Below are positions 54,486-61,193 of a stretch of 64,000 bases of DNA, piece after piece. The notes under the pieces were generated by a model, which was not told where the DNA came from, did no database searches, and saw only the letters and a list, made by a program, of their open reading frames with translations. The translations under genes and the position numbers were made by a program. The stretch comes from Caldisphaera lagunensis DSM 15908 (GTDB lineage: Archaea > Thermoproteota > Thermoprotei_A > Sulfolobales > Acidilobaceae): the NCBI RefSeq assembly GCF_000317795.1, contig NC_019791.1, forward strand, positions 434,001-498,000, read 5' to 3'. The number at the start of each line of letters is the position of its first letter. Position 1 is the first letter of the stretch.

Positions 54486-54884
54486 TTGTGCAAAAAGACC
54501 TTTAAAGCTAAGGTGTTTAGCGGAAAAAACGAAGGAGAATTCTTCGTTAGTCTATACTCAAAGAACATAAAAAACAAATTGGGATTCATTCCCTATCCAG
54601 GAACTCTAAATGCAAAACTAATATCTGATGTAGAAGAATTTAATCAATGTTTATTAAAATCAAAGATGATTATAATAGATCCTCCAAATATTCCAAATAC
54701 AAAATTTGGGAGAGTTTATGCATATCCAATTTTGATTTTTAATTCGTTGAATTCATATATTTTAAGGCCTGAAATAACAATATATAACAAAGAAGTTATA
54801 GAAATAATATCAGATAAAAAGCTGAGAGATTTGTTAAATATTAATGATGGATCTATAATAGAAATAAATATTTTAATAGAATAA
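54486..54884 (+). CDS. ribK: CTP-dependent riboflavin kinase
   Basis: A 132-residue protein of the archaeal RibK (DUF120) family: KAKVFSGKNEGEFFVSLYSK, LGFIPYPGTLNAKL and VYAYPILIFNS. It makes FMN from riboflavin using CTP. The HTH domain found in many archaeal homologues is absent. The start is TTG 54486 after GGGG. It lies 42 bases before an FAD-dependent acyl-CoA dehydrogenase, so flavin supply is consistent with the neighbour. Confidence 0.85.
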   Translation: MCKKTFKAKVFSGKNEGEFFVSLYSKNIKNKLGFIPYPGTLNAKLISDVEEFNQCLLKSKMIIIDPPNIPNTKFGRVYAYPILIFNSLNSYILRPEITIYNKEVIEIISDKKLRDLLNINDGSIIEINILIE

Positions 54885-54926
54885 AATATTTTAAGTAGTA
54901 TTATAATAATTTTCATGGTGATAAAT

Positions 54927-56159
54927 TTGGATTTTGATCTTTCCCAAGATGAAAAACTTTTCAAAGAATCTATACATGAGTTCTTATCTAAAGAACTCAG
55001 TCCAATATGGATAAAAATGGATAGCGAAAGGAAGATACCTACAGAAGTTATCCATAAAATGGGTGAACAGGGATTATTTGCAATAGCTGTACCAGAAGAA
55101 TATGGGGGTCAAGGAGGAAACTTTCTCTTAGCTGCGCTAGCTGTTGAAGAAGTAGCATATAATGATCCTGCTGTTGCAACAGCTGTATTTACTTTATTAA
55201 ATAATAGCTGGCCATATATATTGTATCTTTATGGTAAGGAAGAAGCAAAGCAAGAAATACTTCCCATAGTGGGAAAAGGAAGAGGGTTCTTCGGCATAGC
55301 CTCTACAGAAACTATAGGAGGAAGCGATGTTGCAGGAGAGAGAACAACTGCTAAAAAAGAAGGGAATTTGTATAAAATCAATGGAGAAAAAATATACATA
55401 AGCGGTGTAAGAGAAGCATTAGAACAATTAGATTTGGGTAGTTGGTTTCTAATTGCAAGAACTGGAAGACAAGAAGATAAGCATAGAGGATTATCTACGT
55501 TTGCCTTCATAGGTAATAAAAACGGGAAAATAACTGAAGGTCTTGAATATTCTATTTTAAACACTATTGGTAGGCATGCAATATCTACAGGATTATTACA
55601 TTTTAAAGATGCAACAATTGATTCAAATCATTTGATTGGAGAGGAAAATAAAGGTTTTTATTTGGCAATGCAAGGATTTTCAATAGCTAGAGTTTTAGTA
55701 AGTGCAGCAAATATAGGTGCAGCTCAATGGGCTTTAGAGCAGGCTGTTAAGTATTCTAGAGAAAGAAGGATGTTTGATGATAAACCAATAGCATCTTTCC
55801 AGGGTGTTAGTTTTCCAATTGCAGAGGTTGCAGCAAAAATAGAAGCAACTAGACTATTAATTTATAAATCAGCCCAACTTGCAGATAAAATATTCATTAA
55901 AAAGGAATCAGGATATAAACCGCAAGATCTTAATTATTGGGCATCAGCATCAAAAATTATGGCCATAGAAACGGCTTTCCAGGCAATAGAAACAACAATG
56001 AAAACCTATGGGGGATATTCTTATACAGAAGAGGCTAACGTATTTAGGAACCTGTTAGGAGTATTATCATATTTAGTTGGCGCGGAAGGCTCACAAAATA
56101 TCATGAGATATATAGTTGCTAGAGAATTGATCGGAAGAGAATACGTCAAAGGAGAATAA
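54927..56159 (+). CDS. Acyl-CoA dehydrogenase
   Basis: A protein of about 410 residues (TTG 54927, supported by GGTGAT at 54917-54922). Layout: N-terminal helices (LFKESIHEFLSKELSPIWI), the FAD/acyl site around GFFGIASTETIGGSDVAGER and SGVREA, and the C-terminal helices with a Glu in LVGAEGSQNIMRYIVAREL, matching the catalytic base region. It probably oxidises an acyl-CoA to the enoyl-CoA; chain-length preference is unknown. Confidence 0.92.
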   Translation: MDFDLSQDEKLFKESIHEFLSKELSPIWIKMDSERKIPTEVIHKMGEQGLFAIAVPEEYGGQGGNFLLAALAVEEVAYNDPAVATAVFTLLNNSWPYILYLYGKEEAKQEILPIVGKGRGFFGIASTETIGGSDVAGERTTAKKEGNLYKINGEKIYISGVREALEQLDLGSWFLIARTGRQEDKHRGLSTFAFIGNKNGKITEGLEYSILNTIGRHAISTGLLHFKDATIDSNHLIGEENKGFYLAMQGFSIARVLVSAANIGAAQWALEQAVKYSRERRMFDDKPIASFQGVSFPIAEVAAKIEATRLLIYKSAQLADKIFIKKESGYKPQDLNYWASASKIMAIETAFQAIETTMKTYGGYSYTEEANVFRNLLGVLSYLVGAEGSQNIMRYIVARELIGREYVKGE

Positions 56160-57329: not shown

Positions 57330-58565
57330 TTATTTTTTAACTCTTCCTAATTTTTCATGGGCAGATGCTAATTCTCCTGCAGCTTGAGCAGCTAATAAAT
57401 TAAGCTCCCCAGCTAATGCTGTTGATGCAATAATTTCTGCTAATTTTAATGAATTAGTTCCTGGAGGATTACCCCCACCTGATATACCTAACAATTGTAA
57501 AGATTCCTTTTGAGTTGGAAGCCATGTACCTCCTCCAACAGTACCGACTTCTAAACTAGTCAATGTAACTGATATGTAAAGATCCTCTCCTCTAGTTTCT
57601 GTCCATACATAACCTAGACTACTTTCGACAACCTGTGCTAAATCTTGCCCTGTTGCCAAAAATATCGCGGCTATTATATTTGCAAATTGAGCATTATAAC
57701 TTAAACTACCTGAAACTGCGTTTCCTAACAAATTTTTTGATTTATTAATATAATCTATTTCATAAGAGCTTAATTTCATAACATCTTTAAGTATTTCCTT
57801 CTTTATAATAGCTTCTGCTATAACATATTTTCCCCTTCCTAGTATTTTATCAAGGTAGCTTGGTTTTTTATCAACACATAAATTACCGCTTACGCTAATA
57901 CATTTATGAGTTCCTTCATATGTATCATCTATATATTTGCATATCCTATCGCTAGCTATGGTAGCAATATTCATTCCCATGGCATCAGCTGTATTAAAGA
58001 CAAACCGTGGCCAAATCATATTACCAACAATAAAAATCTGCATATCCTTGAGCTCTCCATGGCTAGTAACTTGCTTAGTTAACTCTTTAAATTTGTCTAT
58101 ATTATTTCTAAGCCATATAGATAATCTATGGGCTTCTTCAACACTTGGAGTCCAAATCAAAGGAGCCCTGGCCATTCCATCATATAATATCTTTGTTTTG
58201 ACCCCACCACTTAATGTTAATGTTTTCACACCCCTATTTACTCCTGCAACTAAGGCTCCTTCAGTTGTAGCCATTGGTACAAAAAATTCACCTTTTGCAT
58301 AATCTCCATTTATTTTAAGAGGTCCAACAACCCCAACAGGTATTTGAATTGCTCCTATGGGATTTTCTATATTATGGCCAACCAAGTCCTCAAAATCTAA
58401 TAAAGTAGAGGCGATTGCAGTAAGCTTTATGTTATATTTTTTCTCTAAATAATGTCTTCTAACTAATGTTGCCAAATTTGAGCTTTTTAAAAATTGATCT
58501 AGCCTACTTATGCTTAATTCTCCTTTCTCTAACTTATCCAATATTTCATCTATGTTACTACTCAT
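57330..58565 (-). CDS. hmgA: HMG-CoA reductase (class I)
   Basis: A 411-residue enzyme of the mevalonate pathway: Glu102 in PMATTEGALVAGV, Lys in KKPSYLDKILGRGKYV, GQDLAQVVESS with the catalytic Asp, GGGTWLPTQ, and the catalytic His 403 in ASAHEKLGR. Length and motifs match archaeal class I enzymes. It is the last gene of the HMG-CoA operon and its ATG abuts the DUF35 stop. Confidence 0.96.
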   Translation of the reverse strand: MSSNIDEILDKLEKGELSISRLDQFLKSSNLATLVRRHYLEKKYNIKLTAIASTLLDFEDLVGHNIENPIGAIQIPVGVVGPLKINGDYAKGEFFVPMATTEGALVAGVNRGVKTLTLSGGVKTKILYDGMARAPLIWTPSVEEAHRLSIWLRNNIDKFKELTKQVTSHGELKDMQIFIVGNMIWPRFVFNTADAMGMNIATIASDRICKYIDDTYEGTHKCISVSGNLCVDKKPSYLDKILGRGKYVIAEAIIKKEILKDVMKLSSYEIDYINKSKNLLGNAVSGSLSYNAQFANIIAAIFLATGQDLAQVVESSLGYVWTETRGEDLYISVTLTSLEVGTVGGGTWLPTQKESLQLLGISGGGNPPGTNSLKLAEIIASTALAGELNLLAAQAAGELASAHEKLGRVKK

Positions 58566-58979
58566 TTATTTATGCACCAATGATGGTCTGAATTTTAACA
58601 CATAATAAATAAGACCTGCATCCCTATCTTCTTGAGTTTTCCTTAAAGTTGCCTCAACCTCCATATCTTTTTTCAAGATGCTTGGATCAATTATATCTGT
58701 TAATTCAGCAGTGATTTTAGCAATACCCAAATCTATTAACCCAAAATATATTGGTGATTGAGGTCTTGCACCATCTGGTATTGCATATATTGTTGTATAT
58801 GATATTAGTTTACCTTTTCTAGGTAATTCTATGTATTCCAATTCTCTGCTTCCACAATAAGGACAAGCATTTTTTGGCGGGTAATGAACTTTACCGCAAG
58901 ATTTGCATTTTGCACCATTTAATTTATATAAGATCTCCTTCTTTCTCCAAAACCTAGATATGGATAAATCCATTGACAT
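58566..58979 (-). CDS. DUF35 OB/zinc-ribbon protein (thiolase-HMGCS partner)
   Basis: A protein of about 137 residues: N-terminal zinc ribbon (CKSCGKVHYPPKNACPYCGS), then an OB fold (LISYTTIYAIPDGARPQSPI). In archaea such proteins bridge thiolase and HMG-CoA synthase into one complex. I chose ATG 58979 because GGGGGTG and the thiolase stop codon lie directly before it; a longer start at 58997 would overlap the thiolase gene. Confidence 0.9.
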   Translation of the reverse strand: MSMDLSISRFWRKKEILYKLNGAKCKSCGKVHYPPKNACPYCGSRELEYIELPRKGKLISYTTIYAIPDGARPQSPIYFGLIDLGIAKITAELTDIIDPSILKKDMEVEATLRKTQEDRDAGLIYYVLKFRPSLVHK

Positions 58980-58983
58980 TATT

Positions 58984-60129
58984 TTACACCCCCTCAACCA
59001 AAGCTACATAAGCACTTGATCCTAAACCATTAAGAGATACTACCAAACCTTTCTTTGCATTGCTTATCTTTATACCAGGGAATTTTCCAGAAACCTGTAA
59101 TGATGATTCTGCTATTTGATATATACCAGTAGCACCTAAAGGATGACCTCTAGCTTTTAATCCACCGCTTGGATTTGCCACAGGACCTTTTCCTCCTGGA
59201 GAGAAATAACCAGTTGATACCAACTCTGCTGCCTTTCCGCGATTAGCAAATCCTAGGGTTTCCAATATTATCATAGCAGTTATTGTAAAAGAGTCGTGAA
59301 TCTCTATAAAATCTATATTTGATAAATCTGCAATATTAGATATCCTTCTATATGCATCTGATAAAGAATCAAACTGCAATGGATCATCACTCATTTCTAT
59401 AGAACCATAACCAGTTGATGATTCAATCGCAGAGATTTTAGCAATAGGAGATCTAGCTACGTCTCTATTAGATAAAACTACTGCTGCTGCACCATCACCC
59501 AATGGATATGAATCGAGAAGTGTAATTGGATCTGCCAAAATTTGGGATTTTGCTACTTTATCAGGTTTAATTGCAAAATTTAACATTGCATATGGATTTT
59601 CTTTAGCATTAGAATGCATTAATGCCGGCCAATAAGACATTGTATCCCTATTTATATTATATGTATCCATATATAGCCTCATTAATAAAGCAGCTTCTCC
59701 TGCAAATCCAATATTGTAAAAAGACTTTGTATCTCCATCATATAACATTTGCAATTGCTTATAAACTTTTGAACTTACAAATTCGTTTAATTTTTCAGCA
59801 CCAACAACTAATACCTTATCTGCTTGATGAGACTCCAACAACGATTTAGCAACAGAAATTGCTGCTAATCCGCTTGCTTCTCCTGCCTCAATATTTAATG
59901 CTCTTACCCCTTTTAATCCTAGAGATGTTGCTAAATAACTTGCTGAATCTAATTGAGAATCTTGCAAAGATGCTAGACTACTAGAAAATATGAGATAATC
60001 TATTCCATCAGCACCTCCTGATTGGTCTATTGCATTAAAAGCCGCCTTTGCTGCTAAATCCTTTAAGCTATAATCATAATGCCTATCTATTTTGGTCATT
60101 CCAACGCCTTCAACATAAACTACCATCAT
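58984..60129 (-). CDS. Thiolase-family protein lacking the nucleophile Cys
   Basis: A protein of about 381 residues, archaeal thiolase type, in the HMG-CoA operon. The usual active-site segment EAACASG reads EAGEASG: Glu84 (codon GAA) where the acyl-accepting Cys is expected. The other catalytic segments are present: HDSFTITAMII (thiolase HxxF-type His) and KARGHPLGATGIYQI. So it can bind CoA substrates but may not run the normal Cys-based Claisen chemistry. See the finding. Confidence 0.85.
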   Translation of the reverse strand: MMVVYVEGVGMTKIDRHYDYSLKDLAAKAAFNAIDQSGGADGIDYLIFSSSLASLQDSQLDSASYLATSLGLKGVRALNIEAGEASGLAAISVAKSLLESHQADKVLVVGAEKLNEFVSSKVYKQLQMLYDGDTKSFYNIGFAGEAALLMRLYMDTYNINRDTMSYWPALMHSNAKENPYAMLNFAIKPDKVAKSQILADPITLLDSYPLGDGAAAVVLSNRDVARSPIAKISAIESSTGYGSIEMSDDPLQFDSLSDAYRRISNIADLSNIDFIEIHDSFTITAMIILETLGFANRGKAAELVSTGYFSPGGKGPVANPSGGLKARGHPLGATGIYQIAESSLQVSGKFPGIKISNAKKGLVVSLNGLGSSAYVALVEGV

Positions 60130-60137
60130 ACTTCACC

Positions 60138-61193
60138 TCATTTAATCACATGAATAATAGATCTACTCTTTGCATAAGTTGCATAATTTATCAAAACTTT
60201 TCTATTTAGATAATCATCAACCATTGGGGCCAGATATTTTCTATTTTCCACCTCATCGGTAACTGTTATTAAATAAGCATCGCTTCCTGCACCACTTCCA
60301 AAAGGAGCTAATAATATTTTTTGTCCTGCCTTTGCTTTATCTAAAACTCTGGCTAAGCCCATTAATGCACTTGCATTATATGTATTTCCAATCATAGGTG
60401 TTACTAATCCATCTTTCATCTGATCCATATTAAATCCTAAATCTTGACCTACTTTTACTGGAAACTTTCCATTGGGTTGATGGAATATTGCATAATCAAA
60501 ATCACTTGGCCTTAGCCCTGTTTTCTCTAATAACGCCTTTACTGCATTTTCAATATGATAGAAATATGCAGGCTCTCCTGTAAATCCTTCACCATGAAGA
60601 GGGTATGGTTGCGAAGCCCTTCTCCAAAAATCAGGAGTATCGGTAACAAATGTTACTGAGTCCTCTATTATTGCTGATGCATTATTGGTTCTTCCTATTA
60701 CAAATGCAGCTGCCCCACTAGCAGCTGTGAATTCTAGCACATCCCCTGGATTTGCTTGAGCTGTATCGCTCCCTATTGCTAAACCAAAATCTATAAGCCC
60801 AGAGGCTGTCATACCAATTAAAGATCTCATACCTTCACTTGCTGCTCTACATGCAAACTCAAGATCACTTGCCATAGTATATGGAGTAATTCCTAGTGCC
60901 TCTCCAATAATTGTTGCACTTGGCTTTACAGCGTATGGCTTTGATTCTGTACCAAAAAAGATTGCACTAATTTTTTTAGGTTCTATTTTAGCTCTTTGAA
61001 TTGCATTATATGCTGCCTCATATCCCATTGTTAAAGAATCTTCGTCAGAACTTGCAATGGCTTTTTCCTCAACAGCTAATCCTTTATATTGGTCTGGATG
61101 CCAACCCCATACTTTGGCTATATCTGATAATGGCAATCTATATAAGGGTATGTAAACACCCCAACCGTGTATGCCTGCTTTCGGAGTTGCCAA
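60138..61193 (-). CDS. hmgS: HMG-CoA synthase
   Basis: A 351-residue thiolase-fold enzyme: nucleophile C115 in LEFACRAASEGMRSL, the Glu in the VEEKAIASSDEDSLTMGYEA region, and the HQPNGKFP histidine. It condenses acetyl-CoA with acetoacetyl-CoA. It is first in the operon HMGCS - thiolase - DUF35 - HMGR, the archaeal layout. Length is typical of archaeal HMGCS. Confidence 0.95.
   Translation of the reverse strand: MATPKAGIHGWGVYIPLYRLPLSDIAKVWGWHPDQYKGLAVEEKAIASSDEDSLTMGYEAAYNAIQRAKIEPKKISAIFFGTESKPYAVKPSATIIGEALGITPYTMASDLEFACRAASEGMRSLIGMTASGLIDFGLAIGSDTAQANPGDVLEFTAASGAAAFVIGRTNNASAIIEDSVTFVTDTPDFWRRASQPYPLHGEGFTGEPAYFYHIENAVKALLEKTGLRPSDFDYAIFHQPNGKFPVKVGQDLGFNMDQMKDGLVTPMIGNTYNASALMGLARVLDKAKAGQKILLAPFGSGAGSDAYLITVTDEVENRKYLAPMVDDYLNRKVLINYATYAKSRSIIHVIK

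Follow-up and report, generated by a model that had tools for sequence, protein, structure and literature searches.

The thiolase encoded in the HMG-CoA operon of Caldisphaera lagunensis DSM 15908 has lost its nucleophilic cysteine, and our comparison suggests that Cys-less operon thiolases of this kind are pseudoenzyme subunits of the thiolase superfamily that are kept beside HMG-CoA synthase (HMGCS) in many heat-loving archaea. The reading we favour, with a probability of roughly 60%, is that this pseudo-thiolase is a structural or CoA-docking subunit of a complex with HMGCS and a DUF35 protein, and that acetoacetyl-CoA is made elsewhere. Channelling of acetoacetyl-CoA into membrane-lipid synthesis, at an entry step whose thiolase equilibrium is unfavourable, has its textbook example in the archaeal thiolase/HMGCS/DUF35 complex. 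Should the operon thiolase be dead throughout Sulfolobaceae, Acidilobaceae and the other families, all of their lipids would be made without the channel, from a thiolase outside the operon, and the annotation as acetyl-CoA acetyltransferase would mislead both Sulfolobus models and metabolic engineering. Literature searches, which did not cover the original paper on the complex (PMC5879682), returned no mention of a Cys-less thiolase in an HMGCS operon.

The gene lies in a window of 64,000 nucleotides, the whole stretch of DNA analysed here, from a host genome assembled as one contig of 1,546,846 bases. It occupies positions 58984-60129 of the minus strand, begins with ATG and encodes 381 residues, which the open reading frame, domain profiles and an AlphaFold2 (AF2) model together identify as an SCP2-type thiolase fold. 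The four genes of the cluster are all on the minus strand and are separated by short gaps or overlap. Transcription runs from HMGCS (60138-61193; above cut-off for TIGR00748 and PRK04262, with the catalytic residues Glu83, Cys115 and His238 all present) through the thiolase to the DUF35 scaffold protein (58566-58997; zf-ChsH2 and OB_ChsH2_C domains with the four zinc cysteines in place), the annotated start of which shares 14 bases with the end of the thiolase gene. The last gene encodes HMG-CoA reductase (HMGR; 57330-58565; above cut-off for TIGR00533). Elsewhere in the window, a small plus-strand ORF (54486-54884) resembles by eye a CTP-dependent riboflavin kinase and directly precedes an acyl-CoA dehydrogenase-like ORF (54915-56159).

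The initial annotation had read EAGEASG, with glutamate at residue 84, where a thiolase should carry its nucleophile, and both the reading frame and the codon bear this out. The segment spans residues 81-87 (59869-59889, minus strand) and replaces EAACxSG, with the GAA codon of Glu84 (59878-59880) at the position of the nucleophilic cysteine. In an alignment with operon thiolases from the order that keep the cysteine (EAACGSG), Glu84 takes exactly its position, and there is no cysteine anywhere in the Caldisphaera protein. The other catalytic segments are retained as had been described: HDSF at residues 278-281 (59287-59298, minus strand), containing His278, and GHPLGATG at residues 328-335, containing His329 (59143-59145, minus strand).

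To establish how far the loss extends we compared 100 genomic stretches that surround HMGCS or its thiolase; the majority are HMGCS operons, and a few carry the unlinked thiolases of families f3, f4 and f9. The family of the window (f1) was taken as Acidilobaceae from the names of its metagenome-assembled genomes (MAGs), takes in MAGs named Aeropyrum, and includes a congener, Caldisphaera sp. KMA_Bin23. Every readable Acidilobaceae operon thiolase has an acidic residue at the cysteine position, 41 of 44 having Glu and three Asp. The loss that the initial annotation proposed to trace across HMGCS/DUF35 operons is therefore lineage-wide, and confining it to one operon or lineage did not hold, since most of the order shows it and it turns up again beyond the class; we thus reject the view of a family-only oddity. 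Within the order the operon thiolase has Glu in f2 and f5, Glu or Asp in f6, and Asp (ENGD) in f11, which we take to be Sulfolobaceae; the cysteine is also gone in f8 (Gly, Gln or Glu), part of f7 (Asp, Leu or His) and part of f10 (Asp). The operon thiolases that keep it are those of most of f7, of f13 and of a single f10 genome, and the unlinked thiolases of SCP2 type in f3, f4 and f9 also have it. In the rest of the phylum the HMGCS-adjacent thiolase lacks the cysteine in 6 of 16 families read (Glu, Glu, Asp, Gly, Gly and Thr). Two f24 genomes (G250 and G292; loci L217 and L220) have a Cys-less thiolase of the Asp type on the opposite side of HMGCS, a rearranged operon.

A quick tree joins all Cys-less members of the order, but the joining branch is of almost zero length and long branches are present. 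Trees in which f10 members with and without the cysteine were kept together as a clade, and likewise those of f7, reached a likelihood above that of the free search, with p-AU of 0.95 each. A single ancient Cys-less paralogue in the order thus gains no firm support, and the trees are in keeping with a cysteine that may have been lost in place several times. The presence of Gly and Asp as common alternatives would fit a stepwise Cys-Gly-Asp-Glu path through single base changes.

The partners of the thiolase show no corresponding decay. Cys115, His238 and Glu83 of HMGCS are each kept in 96 of 96 sequences and the four zinc cysteines of DUF35 in 92 of 92, and the three genes are co-oriented in the window and at all 41 Acidilobaceae loci in which all three were found. 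The thiolase gene itself is under strong purifying selection, as dN/dS between close pairs is 0.04-0.085. The ratio of thiolase to HMGCS pairwise distance, both taken from the same genomes, is approximately 0.7-1.1 where the operon thiolase has its cysteine (1.11 in f7 and 0.73 in f13) and 1.6-2.7 where it does not (1.96 in f1, 1.93 in f5, 2.36 in f2, 2.49 in f11, 2.66 in f8, 2.31 in the Cys-less part of f7, and 1.63 in f6 from one pair). Relative to HMGCS, operon thiolases without the cysteine therefore evolve at about twice the rate of those with it. The control ratios, 1.6-2.6 for DUF35 to HMGCS and approximately 1.0-1.15 for HMGR to HMGCS, show no such split, so only the thiolase has lost part of its constraint where the cysteine is gone, and it is not a pseudogene. 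A lost catalytic residue in a protein whose fold and partners are kept under purifying selection is the pattern of a pseudoenzyme scaffold, and the scaffolding type of role that had been raised for this gene gains support from it.

The AF2 model is a confident thiolase fold (pLDDT 93.2, pTM 0.93), with its best structural matches to a Pyrococcus thiolase (7YVY) and to the thiolase of the Methanothermococcus thermolithotrophicus complex (6ET9/6ESQ). In the known archaeal complex DUF35 bridges thiolase and HMGCS, and a CoA site common to the two enzymes keeps acetoacetyl-CoA from being released, as described in PMC12329534 and PMC6996347. The M. thermolithotrophicus system has the same genes in the same order as Caldisphaera, with an intact HMGCS triad and a DUF35 zinc ribbon in both, and its thiolase superposes on the model with a TM-score of 0.94-0.95 at 29-30% identity. 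The Caldisphaera protein differs from it in having Glu for the nucleophilic cysteine and NG for the GG of the oxyanion loop, and scores 195.6 bits, far below the cut-off of 600, against NF053570 (AcCoTHIOL_METTL), the NCBIfam equivalog. The closest solved structure by both sequence (E 5e-64) and fold is PFC_04095 of Pyrococcus furiosus (7YVY), which differs in keeping its cysteine in EAACASG. A crenarchaeal SCP2-type thiolase-like protein, ST0096 of Sulfolobus (Sulfurisphaera) tokodaii (4YZO), also lacks the cysteine but has a Ser-type motif (NTSGSGG), the type seen in the second thiolase of f8 rather than in the HMGCS operon copy. Dead subunits are familiar in the thiolase superfamily from type II polyketide synthases, in which the chain-length factor (KS-beta) is the obligate partner of an active subunit; there, however, the partner is a paralogous ketosynthase, the replacing residue is usually Gln and the substrate is held on a carrier protein.

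If the operon thiolase is inactive, acetoacetyl-CoA must come from another source, as the initial annotation had anticipated, and its proposal that the genome be searched for a second Cys-bearing thiolase turned up three outside the operon. These are L002, a stand-alone PhaA-like thiolase; L001, which adjoins an enoyl-CoA hydratase-like gene; and L003, an SCP2-type thiolase with a DUF35 of its own. Counterparts of L002, classical thiolases with a strong PF02803 match, are found in 44 of 48 Acidilobaceae genomes, in all Sulfolobaceae and f5 genomes listed, and in just one of many genomes of f9, the SCP2-type thiolase of which keeps its cysteine. By PF00108, the operon copy is the sole thiolase in 18 of the 22 genomes where it has its cysteine, while a further thiolase is present in all 24 where it is Cys-less (Fisher p 2.6e-9); correction for kinship leaves 3-7 independent pairs, of which nearly all informative ones agree, too few for significance. 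The Fervidicoccaceae-like genomes (f8) are the exception: all other genomes examined with a Cys-less operon copy have a Cys thiolase in addition, but in f8 the only second thiolase bears Ser (ENTSGSGG), so takeover by another Cys thiolase is not supported for f8, and a Cys-bearing thiolase seems to be missing from these genomes altogether. The Ser copies are SCP2-type and were read in G008, G029, G019, G040 and G048 (L188 at 1489-2649, L187, L196, L198 and L199). Outside the window the Caldisphaera genome also carries two adjacent thiolase-like genes (L195, 1376-3491, at approximately 126.9-129.0 kb of contig G000:C1), one PRK06066-like and one PRK06065-like, in which the Cys motif is absent (VYVGGGTGV and AGDGL); G106 (L202) has this pair too.

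Taken as a pseudo-thiolase subunit, the protein would be an intact SCP2-type fold in which the acetyl-Cys intermediate can no longer arise, and because the first thiolase half-reaction is impossible with no nucleophile, it should not yield acetoacetyl-CoA by the thiolase mechanism. We propose that the HMGCS-thiolase-DUF35 assembly depends on its physical presence, which would be why it is retained: it would join HMGCS to DUF35 and complete the shared CoA-binding site, and the old thiolase pocket might still take acetoacetyl-CoA as a docking site. Acetoacetyl-CoA would be supplied by a separate Cys-bearing thiolase, most likely L002, for condensation by the intact HMGCS. Orthologues with the cysteine, without it and in partial decay form a natural series in which the non-catalytic role of the thiolase in the complex is directly testable.

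Two features count against a purely inert subunit and speak for a neofunctionalised enzyme, in which the acidic residue and the two kept histidines catalyse another reaction on acetoacetyl-CoA or a different CoA ester (general base catalysis, hydrolysis or an aldol-type reaction). The first is the choice of replacement, which is Glu or Asp in all 24 Acidilobaceae representatives and in 30 of the 37 other Cys-less sequences of the order, mostly acidic and non-random, where plain relaxation would not predict it; an acidic residue turns up again in several lineages, and the Ala before it has become Gly in parallel. The second is that most Acidilobaceae retain HDSF and GHP: His278 is gone in 3 of 24 representatives and His329 in one of 24, which means that selection still acts on the pocket. 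Against new chemistry, His278 is missing in 14 and His329 in 15 of the 37 other Cys-less members of the order, and sister lineages keep the acidic residue yet lose the histidines piecemeal. The decay differs by lineage, with GHP becoming GYP, GNP or GEV and HDxF becoming TD, GD, YD, SD or RD; thus Sulfolobaceae have GYP, f8 has xSDDY, the Acidilobaceae groups f1g9 and f1g6 have GD and TD (His278 to Gly and to Thr, the latter also in g65), and part of f2 has YD. Columns that are fixed in Cys-bearing thiolases and lost in Acidilobaceae comprise A83, C84, G88, N50, M51, A129, D240 and the first Gly of GG367-368; this second GG pair, NG in Caldisphaera, probably belongs to the thiolase oxyanion-hole loop, and its loss, like the faster evolution and an operon with no extra pathway genes, argues against a new catalyst. 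H172, K113, D212-G213, D279, N319, GGxK and G328 are retained in all or nearly all.

Precedent for chemistry in such a fold comes from the aldolases Ltp2-ChsH2 and Sal-Shy (6OK1, 9MYR), DUF35-bound thiolase folds that act without the nucleophilic cysteine (PMC12329534). Caldisphaera shares with them the DUF35 partner gene alongside (zf-ChsH2 and OB_ChsH2_C), but they have a YDHF or YDCY motif with a catalytic Tyr and a hydratase partner, whereas Caldisphaera has HDSF and HMGCS; YDHF and YDCY are absent from its thiolase, and some relatives, from f2, f6 and elsewhere, have YDxY or YDxF. Among these, some Cys-less HMGCS-linked thiolases in which the HDxF histidine has become Tyr read YDTY, YDPF or YDDY (L139-L142 in f2, L157 in the f6 genome G006, and L226 in G330) and resemble the YDxF motif of the Ltp2 and SLP aldolases. 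The repeated acidic choice is not accounted for by a structural subunit, and we therefore keep, as a tentative minority view, a new function within the HMGCS complex that arose several times in Thermoproteota. It may be a gated docking of acetoacetyl-CoA that makes HMGCS depend on or sense outside supply, or new CoA-ester chemistry, and a neofunctionalised enzyme in the strict sense seems to us equally unlikely.

Considerably less probable is that the complex still makes acetoacetyl-CoA in the absence of the cysteine, either by direct non-covalent condensation or with the acetyl-enzyme step passing to Cys115 of HMGCS. In favour of this, the protein retains its fold and most residues of the pocket, and the Fervidicoccaceae-like genomes with no Cys thiolase still keep HMGCS; the separate Cys thiolase in the other Cys-less genomes and the altered oxyanion loop both weigh against it. 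We also know of no thiolase that works without its nucleophile.

The initial annotation drew an analogy with ketosynthases in which a Cys-to-Gln change gives a decarboxylating enzyme, and by this analogy the Cys-to-Glu protein might decarboxylate malonyl-CoA to feed acetyl or acetoacetyl units. A Cys-less thiolase fold from Trypanosoma brucei, the SCP2-thiolase-like protein (SLP; 5AB4-5AB7), has been solved with acetoacetyl-CoA and malonyl-CoA, and as reported in PMC12329534 it decarboxylates malonyl-CoA very slowly, at 0.005 per s; it differs in having a YDCF motif, no DUF35 partner and no link to HMGCS. The carboxyltransferase domain PF01039 was found in none of 14 Acidilobaceae genomes, Caldisphaera included, nor in the f5 and f6 genomes tested, with positive controls, and is present in Sulfolobaceae, f2, f7, f8 and f13 genomes; as far as the PF01039 route goes, Acidilobaceae thus have no acyl-CoA carboxylase as a source of malonyl-CoA. 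As the residue is also Glu rather than Gln (Glu, Asp or Gly in nearly all relatives) and the catalytic histidines are lost in relatives, the analogy is left unsupported and we regard decarboxylation as very improbable.

That the protein is an ordinary active thiolase, through a sequencing error or a nucleophile placed elsewhere, can be put close to nil: the 44 Glu- or Asp-bearing family members come from independently sequenced genomes, the change from TGY to GAR takes three bases and so is no single miscall, and 32 of 41 near-full-length Acidilobaceae operon thiolases have no cysteine at all, the other nine having one each at scattered, non-conserved positions. In one genome (G147) the operon thiolase is in frame for 235 residues only (L071), probably owing to a frameshift in the MAG assembly, and its full length is there as DNA (L243 matches residues 1-381).
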